From NCBI GenBank assembly GCA_000733355.1, contig JNVV01000010.1:476324-540323 (forward strand): DNA of 64,000 bases, read 5' to 3'. The DNA is from Falciphora oryzae (Eukaryota; Ascomycota; Sordariomycetes; Magnaporthales; Magnaporthaceae). Under the pieces are notes generated by a model, which was not told the origin of the DNA, made no database searches, and worked only from the letters and a program-made list of their open reading frames with translations. Below, piece by piece: positions 46,256 to 51,048 of this stretch (position 1 is the first letter of the stretch; every line of letters begins with the position of its first letter). The translations under genes and the position numbers were made by a program.

Positions 46256-46480
46256 TTCACGTTTTCGTTGCGTTTATATAGGTAGTTTTGATACCAACAC
46301 ATGTTCCTGCTGTAATAATACATCGAAATCCCGGCGCGGTTCATGGCACCGGGCAACAAGAACCGAAATCAGAGCCTGGCGAACACCAACTTCTGCCGAC
46401 CGTCCACATTTATCCCAAAGTATCGGTATCCGTTGGGCTACGGAAAGAAGACGAGGAATCGGGGAACAGAAAAAAAAGAC

Positions 46481-46486
46481 AAAAAA
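46481..46486 (-). terminator. Pol III terminator of tRNA-Leu
   Basis: Six T on the sense strand, five bases after the mature 3' end, followed by a second T8 run at 46470-46477. Suggests that Pol III transcription has been retained. Confidence 0.7.
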
Positions 46487-46491
46487 TTATA

Positions 46492-46650
46492 TGATCAGAG
46501 TGGGACTCGAACCCACGCGGATTGCTCCATAGGAAGACTGTGACAGCACCTTAATCCTACGCCATAACCAACTCTAGAGGGGATTAGTATGGGACTGTGA
46601 TGCAGACGGTGGAGAAGGGATGCAGATTGTGACATACCGGCCATCTGACC
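46492..46650 (-). tRNA. tRNA-Leu (anticodon AAG) with two introns
   Basis: Minus strand. Exonic pieces are 46650-46638 (nucleotides 1-13), 46573-46549 (14-37) and 46535-46492 (38 to discriminator). Acceptor GGTCAGA pairs with TCTGATC (one G-U), D stem GCC/GGC, anticodon stem TAGGA/TCCTA, anticodon AAG at 46550-46552, a class II variable arm with GGA/TCC stem, T arm GTGGG/CCCAC with TTCGAGT loop, and discriminator A at 46492, all as expected for eukaryotic Leu. A normal 13-nt intron lies at 46536-46548 (37/38). A second insert, 46574-46637, separates nucleotides 13 and 14. Without removing it no 5' acceptor strand or D arm can be formed. Box B is intact; box A is split by the insert. Confidence 0.88.
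46574..46637 (-). other. 64-nt spliceosomal-type intron inside tRNA-Leu
   Basis: On the sense (minus) strand it begins GTATGT, contains the branch-like TACTAAT 13-19 nt from its end, and ends CCTCTAG: the fungal spliceosomal consensus in length, donor, branch and acceptor. It interrupts the tRNA within the D loop (after GGCCG, before AGTTGG). I did not find the bulge-helix-bulge expected for the tRNA splicing endonuclease. Confidence 0.75.
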
Positions 46651-47253
46651 ACTAGATTCGAGGTTAGAGGTGCGGCTCCACAGAGTGAGCGAAATAGCCG
46701 GCCGCCTCGAGCAGCAGTGGGCCTTCAATTCACCCCAGTGAATCTCCAGCGGCAGTTTTTGATCAGGCCTCTTCATTGCGGCTTGAATCGACATGGATGG
46801 GCTCTGTTACTGAGCAGACACGGCTCGTCTTTGATCAATCCAACACCGCATAGTTGGTTCTCAGAGGTGATGAACTGGAATGATTCATCCTGAGTGCCTG
46901 CCCGCTACCCTGAAGCCCCTGCTGGAGGCCTGTGCTGGGCTGACCCACTGCCCGGACGAGTCAGATGAGTGCCGAACTGCATGGGACTTCGTGTGCGGCT
47001 CGCATTATCGCTTCGCCTCCCCACACGCCCAGCGCAAGTAGATGCGAGGAGAGATGGTGTTGGACTGGAAATAAATGCTTCCATCTCCCCCAGGCTCTGG
47101 GCGAAAAGGATTGTCTTTTTGCTTATCATCACTAGGCATCTAATACACGCTTGAATCAAGACAATTGAAGCCCCTTTTCTTGGGCACACCTACCGACCAA
47201 TACAACCAACACTCCGTCTAGCGATATCCCACCCCTCGGGCGAGGACATATTC

Positions 47254-50200
47254 ATGGCGTCTGTTCGGCCACCAACTCCTGAGGCCCTCCAGCCCATCTC
47301 AGCCTCCTCACACGACACGGCCCTCTGCATTGTTCCACCACGCCATCTCTGGTCATCCATTGACCGGCTCAGGGCCCTCTACGATAAAGCACACAAGAAA
47401 TGGCCTCCGCACCTCAACCTCGTCTACCCCTTTGTGAGAATCGAGAGCCTCGAGCGGGCGGCCGACGAGATTGGCGCCGGTATCGAGTCCCGGAGGCGGC
47501 AAATAGGAGATGACAGCACCCCAAGGATCCAGCTCAGCTCTGTGGACGTCTTCCCCCACCGGCGGGGCAACACCATATTCCGCTGCGACAGTGACGAGGC
47601 CCGTGGGAGGGCGCTGCAGGAGATCCGGGCAGCCGTGCTCGCAGCCCTGGGCCAGACGGACGACGCAACCCACCGCCTGCACATGACGGTTGCGCAGAGC
47701 GACGACTTGGAGGCGAGCGCCCACAAGTTCCTCTATGAGAAGGTGAGCCTCCTGCCGAAGGTCGAGTGGGACGTCGACACCCTCCACATCCTGGTGCGGG
47801 AGCGGACGACGCTCGAGAACGGCGTGTCGTCGAGTGTCATGAAGGCTTGGGGCACCGTCGACCTCGGAACCGGCGCCGTCTCGAGGTTTCTGTCGCTTCA
47901 AGGCTTTTACGAAGAAGACATCGCCACCGCTGCAGAAGAAGACAGTGATGCTGGCGTCACGTTGGAGGCGCGGCTACCGCCGAGTCCGTCTTTCGTTTAC
48001 GACGAGGATGCCGGGAGTTGGAAGAAGCACTCCTCACGAGCCGCACACACGCAGCGGGTTGTGCCCCGTGAGCTGAGGGTATCCAGCTACAACGTCCTGG
48101 CCGAGTTTCTTTACCCTCCCAGGCAGGACAGGTACCCGGCCTTGGTGCGCAACATGCTGTCGCGCGAGGGGTCGGCCGAGGTCCTCGTCCTACAAGAGGT
48201 GACGGACGACTTCCTCACCTACCTATTAAATGACGAAGGCGTGCGCGCGGCGTACCCCTTTGTCTCGCACGGCCCGCCCGACCAGGACGACATGGAGCCG
48301 CTCCCCAACTTCCTCAATATCGTCGTCTTCAGCAGCTGGCCGTTCGACTGGGAGGCGGTGCCGTTCGCGCGCCAGCACAAGGGTGCCGTCGTGGCCACGT
48401 TCCCGGACCTGGCCCGGTGGGAGGACGGCGAGTGCCTCCCGCTCGCCCTGGCCGCCGTGCACTTCACCCACGGCCTGACCGACGGCGCCGTGTCGGCGAA
48501 GCGCGGGGAGCTGCAGCGCGTGCTGGCGCACCTGGCCGGCAGCTACGAGGGCCAGCCCTGGGTCCTGGCCGGCGACTTCAACGTGACCACGTCGCCGCAC
48601 ACCGTCAGCGCCGCGCTCAAGAAGGGTGACATCTCGGCGCAGACGGCCGCGTACCTGGCCGGATTCGAGACCATGCTCGACGAGGCGGGGCTCGTCGACA
48701 CCTGGGCCGCCTCGGCGGACGCCGGGGACAGCCACGACGACGACGAGGGCGGCGCGACTTTCGATCCAGGTCTGAACAAGCTCGCAGGCCAGATGGTCGG
48801 CAATGGCCTCGGTAACAGGCCGCAGCGGTACGACCGGATCCTCTTTAGAGGCGAGGGCATGCTAGACGTGGCGGGCTTCAACATGTTCGGCCTCGTCGAC
48901 GAGGCGAGCGCGGCAGCGGCCCTGAAGGGCGACGAGGCGGCCGAGAGGGCGGCATACGGCAGCGACCACTGGGGCATCAGGTGCTCGCTGAGGCTCGAGG
49001 CCGGGATGGCGTCCGGTGACACGACAACGAGCGAGATCTCCAGCTTGGTCGTCGCGGTCGAGCCCAGGAAGGCCTCGGGCGCGTTGGAGGGCGTGCAGCC
49101 TTTGCGAGACTCCCTCTTTGCGCTCGGTGCCTTCCCAACAGAGGCCGAGGCGGCCCGCCGCCAGGAGGCTTTCGAGCTTCTCAGAGACTTGATATTGGAG
49201 AATCCAATGGGTGAGGACGCCGACGGCCCCTCCGCCATTGGGCGCCTGAAGCCGTCCCTGGTCGTAATCCCCGTGGGGTCTTACGGGCTCGGCGTCTGGA
49301 CTCCATCCTCGGACATCGACGTTATGTGCATCGGGCCCTACAGCTCAGCCGTCTTCATGGCGTTGACCGCGCAACGGATCCGGAAAGCCGCCGCGCGCGA
49401 CTTTAAGCTCGTGCGGCGGGTCAGGGCCAACACGGGCACGATGCTAGAGCTCGAGGTCCAGGGCGTCAAGATGGACCTGCAGTACTGCGCCGCGACATCC
49501 GTGGCTGAGAACTGGCCCGCCGTCCTGGACCGGCCCGCCGGCGACCCCGTCTTCTCCTTGCCGGCTCAGACGCTCGGCAAGCTCAAGGCGGCCCGGGATC
49601 TGGACTACCTGCGCCGGTCCCTACCGGACCTGGCCAAGTTCCGCCTCGCCCACCGGGCCGTCAGGACCTGGGCCAAGACGCGCGGCATCTACTCGGTCCG
49701 GTTCGGCTACCTGGGCGGCATCCAGGTCTCGGTCCTGCTCGCGCGCGTCTGCAAGTCGCTCGCCCGCGACGTGGGCCCCGGCCTGTCCGTCGCCGACATC
49801 CTCGTCTCCTTCTTCGGCCACTACGCCGCCTTCGACTGGCAGAAGGACCTGGCGTTCGACCCCTTCTTCCACAACAGGAAGCTCAGCTACCACCGCACCT
49901 TCCGCGAGCCGCTCGCGATCCTGGGCTTCTTCCCGCCCATGCTCAACACCTCGCACGCCGCCACCGTCCCATCCGTCCGGGCCATGGCCGGCGAGTTCCG
50001 GCGCGCGGCCGCCCTGCTCTCTCGGGAGGACATGACGTGGGACGCCTTCTTCCGCGGCCCCGGCGTCCCCAGATCCCCGTCGGCGGCGGCTCCAGCGCCA
50101 GCGGCCCTCCCAAGCGGTGCGGCCGATTTCCTGGTCTCGTACAAGTCGTTCATCAAGTTCGAGCTTAGCTACTGGGGCATCTCGCTCCCGAGGGGCGCGC

Positions 50201-51048
50201 AGTTCGTCGGCTGGTTCGAGTCGCGCTGCCCAATCATCCTTGTGGACATCTCGCGACGGCTCCCCGGCGTGCTCGCGCGCATGTGGCCGGAGCGTTTCGT
50301 CGAGGCTGCTGACGCCACTGCCGGCATAGTCTCGGCGGGCGATGGCCAAGAGCAGGATCGTGAGTACCAGGGGTGTTATCTCGTCGGACTCGAGCAGCAG
50401 CAGCAGCAGCAGCAGCAAGAGGGCGGCGACGCTCCGTCCAAGGAGGACCAGCGAGCGGCGGCCGGCGCATTGCAGTCTCTGCTGCAGCGGTTCGAGGAGC
50501 TGATCCGCGGCGATGCCAAGTACTACGACTCCAACTGCATGTGGATGAGCGCTTCCGTGGTGCGGCGGGGCGACCTCGGCGACCTGGCCGTCGACGGCCG
50601 GTCGTGGGGCGAGTACACGGCAGGGGAGGACGAGGAGGATGAGGAAGAAGAGGAGGAAGCTGACGAGGACGAAGGGGACTCGCTCGACGGCGAGCCGGCC
50701 GGGCTCTCCCTTTCGAAAAAGGAGAGGAAGAAGAAGAAGGGACGAAAGGTCAAGGACGCGGCGTCGAGCTCGGCTCCCCGGCCGGGAGGCGGTGGCAAGT
50801 TCCGGGCTGCGGCAGACGTCATCAGCCGGCTGCGATGGGACCCGTCGCTGGATAGCAGCGACTACATTGTCGGGTATGAGGATCGGTTCAGGGGCGCCAT
50901 GGAGAGGGCGCTTGATGCGTGGAAATCGGAGCAGACGGACGAGGAGTTTATTCCGCAGCACCGCATTCTCTACTTCAAAAGGAGGAGTGACGGTGTCATC
51001 GTCTGGGAGCGGCGTACGCGCAAGGATGAATTGTTTGGTAGTGGGTAA
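47254..51048 (+). CDS. Four-domain RNA-end processing protein: 2H + EEP + nucleotidyltransferase + MJ1316
   Basis: Intronless, 1264 residues. (1) 2H phosphoesterase, about 20-225: motifs HLNL (H53) and HMTV (H143), acting on 2'-5' or cyclic phosphate ends. (2) EEP phosphatase, about 272-580: SYNVL, QEV (E315), GDFN (440-443) and SDH (570-572), all metal/catalytic residues present. (3) Poly(A)-polymerase/TUT-like nucleotidyltransferase, about 630-1110: GSYGLG (G675-S676), acids D687 and D689 in SDIDVM, and third acid D741 in KMDLQY. (4) C-terminal MJ1316 (DUF504) domain, about 1187-1262: RLRWDPSLD, YIVGYEDRF, IPQHRILYFKR. A polyglutamine run (about 1048), an acidic tract (about 1128-1147) and a lysine-rich tract link 3 and 4. 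The architecture indicates trimming or healing plus extension of RNA ends; substrate unknown. Comparative genomics of RNA repair has linked MJ1316 to recognition of cyclic phosphate ends. Confidence 0.9.
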   Translation: MASVRPPTPEALQPISASSHDTALCIVPPRHLWSSIDRLRALYDKAHKKWPPHLNLVYPFVRIESLERAADEIGAGIESRRRQIGDDSTPRIQLSSVDVFPHRRGNTIFRCDSDEARGRALQEIRAAVLAALGQTDDATHRLHMTVAQSDDLEASAHKFLYEKVSLLPKVEWDVDTLHILVRERTTLENGVSSSVMKAWGTVDLGTGAVSRFLSLQGFYEEDIATAAEEDSDAGVTLEARLPPSPSFVYDEDAGSWKKHSSRAAHTQRVVPRELRVSSYNVLAEFLYPPRQDRYPALVRNMLSREGSAEVLVLQEVTDDFLTYLLNDEGVRAAYPFVSHGPPDQDDMEPLPNFLNIVVFSSWPFDWEAVPFARQHKGAVVATFPDLARWEDGECLPLALAAVHFTHGLTDGAVSAKRGELQRVLAHLAGSYEGQPWVLAGDFNVTTSPHTVSAALKKGDISAQTAAYLAGFETMLDEAGLVDTWAASADAGDSHDDDEGGATFDPGLNKLAGQMVGNGLGNRPQRYDRILFRGEGMLDVAGFNMFGLVDEASAAAALKGDEAAERAAYGSDHWGIRCSLRLEAGMASGDTTTSEISSLVVAVEPRKASGALEGVQPLRDSLFALGAFPTEAEAARRQEAFELLRDLILENPMGEDADGPSAIGRLKPSLVVIPVGSYGLGVWTPSSDIDVMCIGPYSSAVFMALTAQRIRKAAARDFKLVRRVRANTGTMLELEVQGVKMDLQYCAATSVAENWPAVLDRPAGDPVFSLPAQTLGKLKAARDLDYLRRSLPDLAKFRLAHRAVRTWAKTRGIYSVRFGYLGGIQVSVLLARVCKSLARDVGPGLSVADILVSFFGHYAAFDWQKDLAFDPFFHNRKLSYHRTFREPLAILGFFPPMLNTSHAATVPSVRAMAGEFRRAAALLSREDMTWDAFFRGPGVPRSPSAAAPAPAALPSGAADFLVSYKSFIKFELSYWGISLPRGAQFVGWFESRCPIILVDISRRLPGVLARMWPERFVEAADATAGIVSAGDGQEQDREYQGCYLVGLEQQQQQQQQEGGDAPSKEDQRAAAGALQSLLQRFEELIRGDAKYYDSNCMWMSASVVRRGDLGDLAVDGRSWGEYTAGEDEEDEEEEEEADEDEGDSLDGEPAGLSLSKKERKKKKGRKVKDAASSSAPRPGGGGKFRAAADVISRLRWDPSLDSSDYIVGYEDRFRGAMERALDAWKSEQTDEEFIPQHRILYFKRRSDGVIVWERRTRKDELFGSG
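50394..50420. repeat. CAG repeat coding polyglutamine
   Basis: Near-perfect CAG run inside the linker between the nucleotidyltransferase and MJ1316 domains. Length polymorphism is likely and keeps frame. Confidence 0.8.

Follow-up and report, generated by a model that had tools for sequence, protein, structure and literature searches.

An interrupted tRNA-Leu(AAG) gene and its paralogues

The window, by which we mean the whole stretch of 64,000 nucleotides of Falciphora oryzae DNA analyzed here, contains a class II tRNA-Leu(AAG) gene at 46650-46492 on the minus strand with two interruptions: 64 nt separate tRNA nucleotides 13 and 14, and a further 13 nt lie within the anticodon loop (Table 1). 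This copy (L031) is absent from the ARAGORN and Rfam calls. The same window contains a long open reading frame (ORF) at 47155-51045 (+), which shares 87% identity with a protein of Gaeumannomyces hyphopodioides, 84% with one of G. tritici, and 54% with those of Pyricularia species, which places the host near Gaeumannomyces within the ascomycetes. The ORF product has 2'-5' RNA ligase, endo/exonuclease/phosphatase, poly(A) polymerase central, and MJ1316 domains, and similar proteins are found in many related fungi.

Table 1. Positions of the parts of the tRNA-Leu(AAG) gene, its two inserts, and its promoter and terminator elements
Feature	Positions	Strand	Remarks
tRNA-Leu(AAG) exon 1 (nt 1-13; 5' acceptor strand and beginning of D arm)	46638..46650	-	13 nt; mismatches: 0 vs L032-L034, 2 vs L035
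Spliceosomal-type intron (very likely), 64 nt, nt 13/14	46574..46637	-	missing in 4 AAG paralogues; signals unique among window 64-mers; single copy
5' splice site GTATGT	46632..46637	-	sequence
Branch-site motif TACTAAT	46583..46589	-	sequence; 9 nt from insert end
3' splice site TAG (insert end CTAG)	46574..46576	-	sequence
Middle tRNA exon, from nt 14 into the anticodon loop (remainder of D arm; anticodon AAG)	46549..46573	-	25 nt; 0 mismatches vs L032-L035
Ordinary tRNA intron, anticodon loop, 13 nt	46536..46548	-	14-nt counterpart in L032-L035
Last tRNA exon (variable and T arms, 3' acceptor strand)	46492..46535	-	44 nt; mismatches: 0 vs L032-L034, 4 vs L035
A box, first half TGGCCG	46638..46643	-	separated from second half by insert; junction 12-mer -1.2 bits
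A box, second half AGTTGG	46568..46573	-	junction 12-mer -2.7 bits
B box GGTTCGAGTCC	46503..46513	-	sequence; identical in L032-L034
T6 run, Pol III terminator type	46481..46486	-	sequence

A first-pass annotation, made from the letters of the window alone, had proposed the 64-nt insert at this site, the signals GTATGT, TACTAAT, and CTAG within it, and the additional 13-nt tRNA intron, and all of these were confirmed: the signals are present in the insert, paralogous genes run uninterrupted through the 13/14 position, and the short intron has its counterpart at the same anticodon-loop site in four of them. These paralogues were found by searching the organism's own genome (50.18 Mb, 123 contigs) with positions 46470-46680 as the query, which returned six other loci (L032 to L037). 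The match starts at the 3' edge of the insert (query position 107) in five of the six and at query position 147 in L037, a tRNA-Leu(TAG) gene according to ARAGORN. L032, L033, L034, and L035 were called tRNA-Leu(AAG) by the same program, and in each of them exon 1 joins exon 2 directly. The exon pieces of the window copy show 0 mismatches in 82 positions to each of L032, L033, and L034 and 6 in 82 to L035, while its 13-nt tRNA intron differs from those of the paralogues by 2 to 4 changes and a 1-nt gap. The copy count called for by the first-pass annotation, carried out here for the own genome, is therefore four tRNA-Leu(AAG) copies without the insert and one with it.

The insertion is thus an exact one in one of the five tRNA-Leu(AAG) genes found. 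The point between nucleotides 13 and 14 is exact because the uninterrupted AAG paralogues define its boundaries independently of the splice motifs; a one-base ambiguity in the position of the insert arises because G flanks it on both sides. The remaining locus, L036 (G000:C2:1194623-1194702), is a relative of tRNA-Leu(AAG) with 84% identity over query positions 107-184 and, by eye, a CAG anticodon; it was rejected by ARAGORN as a tRNA and looks like a decaying tRNA-Leu copy.

Splice signals and origin of the 64-nt insert

The GT and AG ends of the insert, with an extended 5' splice site, coincide with the boundaries defined by the paralogues, and the branch-site motif TACTAAT is suitably spaced from the 3' end. 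The strict signal set (GTATGT, TACTAAT, and CTAG) occurs in 1 of the 127,874 64-mers on both strands of the window, namely, the insert itself, and a loose set (GTRNGT, YTRAY, and YAG) occurs in 3 of them. For comparison with introns of the host, we used 25 exon pairs from actin- and Ras-family genes of the same genome; where an exon pair had more than three candidates, the solutions listed were those with scores of at least 4/5. Thirteen of the exon pairs had at least one listed GT-AG solution of exactly the length given by the family alignment (64 to 186 nt, with GTR donors), one of which (L051) also had another solution of exact length, in this case with a GTC donor, and the other 12 had no exact-length solution among those listed. 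A suitably placed YTRAY within the last 24 nt was present in 5 of the 13 host introns, and an exact GTATGT or TACTAAT was present in none of the 13. The first-pass annotation had likened the insert to fungal mRNA introns, and this comparison held up: at the sequence level, the insert fits the host introns in length (64 nt versus 64 to 186 nt) and in its types of signal, which are typical. A spliceosomal-type intron is by far the best reading of the insert and very likely the right one; whatever the function of the gene, we assign it to this (U2-type) class with high confidence.

No second copy of the insert was found in the organism's own genome at E values up to 10, the single match being the insert itself. 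A mobile introner-like family was rejected on these grounds, and no donor is visible for a transposition in the very recent past. Inside the insert (46599-46631), two copies of a 13-nt stretch, 20 nt from each other, share 85% identity; this is perhaps an old internal duplication, at a length short enough to arise by chance.

Promoter elements, function, and alternative readings

If the window copy is functional, its locus would be transcribed by Pol III, in keeping with the intact B box and terminator, or would lie within a Pol II transcript. The spliceosome would excise the 64 nt between nucleotides 13 and 14, by which the D arm would be rebuilt, and tRNA endonuclease and ligase would excise the 13-nt intron from the anticodon loop; both the order of these two splicing steps and the production of a mature tRNA are what we infer. 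The exons are able to form tRNA-Leu(AAG), with 82 of 82 nt as in the ARAGORN-accepted genes L032 to L034. The T6 run is undamaged, as is the B box, GGTTCGAGTCC. Folding of the precursor gave no signal (z of -0.19).

The A box of the window copy is split by the insert into TGGCCG and AGTTGG. We scored it with a matrix of 13 A boxes. The distinct tRNAs at 29 of 30 loci supplied them (L018 was dropped, as it has no B-box match), except for three that we added, namely, the box of Leu(AAG), the one in the apparently decayed L036, and one from a tRNA-Gln; 2 of the 13 boxes come from contig C83. The uninterrupted Leu box scores 11.1 bits, and the 12-mers across the two junctions score -1.2 and -2.7 bits. 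The best 12-mer nearby scores 5.3 bits, compared with 9.1 to 16.5 bits for all 13 boxes of the matrix, and chance alone would give about 0.4 equally good 12-mers in the stretch; by this scoring, the stretch scanned near the split holds no replacement A box of normal strength. A TATA element taking the place of the A box was likewise rejected, since the window copy is no better in this respect than the AAG paralogues: its best match to TATAAA is 4/6, at -18, compared with 3/6 to 4/6 in the four AAG paralogues, and some other tRNA genes reach 5/6 to 6/6 (56 other genes were compared, with the loci on contig C83 excluded as mitochondrial-looking). Contig G000:C83 (124,565 bases) has a high density of tRNA genes belonging to other types and looks mitochondrial.

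In favor of function, the exons are unchanged while the tRNA intron of this copy differs from those of its paralogues, L036 illustrates how a decaying relative appears, and the B box and T run are intact. If divergences of 0.5 to 0.2 are assumed, however, a rough calculation leaves room for an unselected insertion during the most recent 15 to 37% of the period following the split of the copies, and gene conversion could mimic selection. The exon-conservation test of function is weak, because a late insertion and gene conversion are both compatible with its result. Judged from these sequence features, whether the window copy is functional is close to an even bet, and for the joint proposition, a 64-nt spliceosomal-type intron in one of five tRNA-Leu(AAG) genes together with function of that gene, the arguments appear equally balanced. 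The more specific proposal, which we put forward tentatively, is that of a functional nuclear tRNA whose precursor would depend on the spliceosome as well as on tRNA endonuclease and ligase, such that the A box of a Pol III gene would be split in the DNA and restored in the RNA only.

The strongest alternative, and a serious one, is that the window copy is a silenced extra copy: the gene would have gained a spliceosomal intron in the fairly recent past, through reverse splicing or in some other way, and the gain would have broken the A box, leaving a pseudogene that is no longer expressed but still undecayed. For such a copy, a split A box that lacks a substitute of normal strength is to be expected, and the presence of four uninterrupted AAG genes makes the window copy dispensable. 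According to the review PMC4090602, moreover, a eukaryotic tRNA gene with such an insertion is probably a pseudogene when it is one among many synonymous ones. On the other hand, all 82 exon nucleotides, the splice signals, the B box, and the T run are intact, and the genome holds no donor copy of the insert. The first-pass annotation had named an intact AAG family elsewhere, combined with decay of this copy in relatives, as evidence against its reading; the intact family exists (four copies), whereas decay of the window copy is not seen in its own genome. What stands of that reading is a spliceosomal-type intron beside a tRNA intron, which is supported by the paralogues, the boundary signals, and the host introns; that the gene is a working one was not confirmed, given the split A box, which that annotation does not mention, and the four uninterrupted copies.

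Alternatively, the insert could be a noncanonical tRNA intron with a bulge-helix-bulge (BHB) structure cut by the tRNA splicing endonuclease, as in Cyanidioschyzon merolae and archaea. Such positions do carry introns in some algae (PMC4090602 and PMC3978253), and the outer helix at 13/14 forms 4 of 4 pairs, the central helix 2 of 4, and the inner helix 1 of 4. This is a poor fit, but the measure does not discriminate, as the canonical intron does no better by it (3 outer, 2 central, and 1 inner pairs). This reading is highly unlikely because the splice motifs sit at the exact boundaries, where it leaves the GT, branch-site, and AG signals unexplained. That the insert is a random 64-nt sequence carrying the signals by chance, or an assembly error, is very unlikely: although the data come from a single assembly of one strain, the scarcity of 64-mers with either signal set leads us to reject a chance origin of the signals, and the site is interior to a 1.07-Mb contig.

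Related introns in small RNA genes and in the host genome

Spliceosomal-type introns also occur outside protein-coding genes, as mRNA-type introns are present in fungal nuclear rDNA. The insert resembles these in being a spliceosomal-type intron in a noncoding RNA gene and differs in that their host is an rRNA, transcribed by Pol I. Closer parallels are found among small structured RNAs, of which U3 snoRNA and U6 snRNA are, according to PMC5832005, the only ones known so far to be often interrupted by introns. The same source bears out the precedent named in the first-pass annotation, U6 introns in fungi. The insert shares with the U6 intron of fission yeast and other fungi its short length, its spliceosomal type, and its location in the gene for a small structured RNA of the Pol III kind (PMC5832005); unlike that intron, it splits the A box of a tRNA gene that has a second, tRNA-type intron. 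The fungal U3 introns, which are excised by the pre-mRNA splicing machinery (PMC5832005), share with it the location in a small structured RNA, which is a snoRNA there and a tRNA here.

Introns in eukaryotic tRNA genes are mostly canonical in position (PMC4090602), and their splicing is described as independent of the spliceosome (PMC13149111). The window gene has one such intron at the usual anticodon-loop site (37/38), the 13-nt one, from which the 64-nt insert differs in position, signals, and, by our reading, enzyme. Noncanonical tRNA introns are described for nucleomorphs and C. merolae (PMC4090602), and these resemble the insert (PMC4090602 and PMC3978253) in lying in the D arm or at other unusual positions, in that some genes have two or three introns, and in interrupting the A box. 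In C. merolae, both the A and B boxes are interrupted, and TATA-directed transcription without TFIIIC has been suggested (PMC3978253). In contrast to the insert, however, the C. merolae introns are of the BHB/endonuclease type, the route by which the nucleomorph introns are removed is unexplained, and GT, branch-site, and AG signals are undescribed for either in the accessible parts of these sources.

A spliceosomal intron in a tRNA gene is not mentioned in the accessible parts of PMC11782384 and PMC6461891. A literature search, with most subscription papers outside its reach, found no report of an mRNA-type intron in a tRNA gene, which agrees with the first-pass annotation, where no established nuclear case was known. 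As far as these sources go, mRNA-type introns in U6 and U3 are already known, and the tRNA gene as their site is the new element. If transcripts of the window copy are spliced, tRNA would join U6 and U3 among the small structured RNAs processed by the spliceosome, and a single precursor would need two splicing machineries of different origin; the gene would also be an example of the use of a tRNA gene despite a split A box. Even if it is a pseudogene, it would be a record of the gain of a spliceosomal-type intron within a tRNA gene, with a bearing on intron origins.

Two collections that are unlikely to include fungi (viral_contigs and genome_contigs) gave 0 matches each to the exact pattern of the interrupted gene. 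Within the organism's own genome, four other tRNA families, each searched separately, yielded 26 loci (Ala, 10; Arg, 7; Ile, 7; and Gly, 2), 6 of which match in two pieces, with three breaks at 37/38, two within query positions 36-43, and one within 25-43. These breaks appear to be placed as for ordinary tRNA introns. In C53 (Ala), about 23 extra bases lie inside one alignment. In a first look at tRNA candidates in the genome, 63 of 1233 were scored. The corresponding number for the U3 search was 48 of 195, and for U6, with 47 of 2166 candidates scored, the single match (L087, G000:C2:1650335-1650434) was uninterrupted. By eye, this U6 match is directly followed by a B-box-like stretch, GGATTCGAGTCC. 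At five of five loci (L001 to L005), a tRNA-Glu(CTC) gene with an intron of 22 to 29 nt lies 2 to 4 nt before a tRNA-Lys(CTT) gene, an arrangement that looks as if the pair might be made as one transcript.
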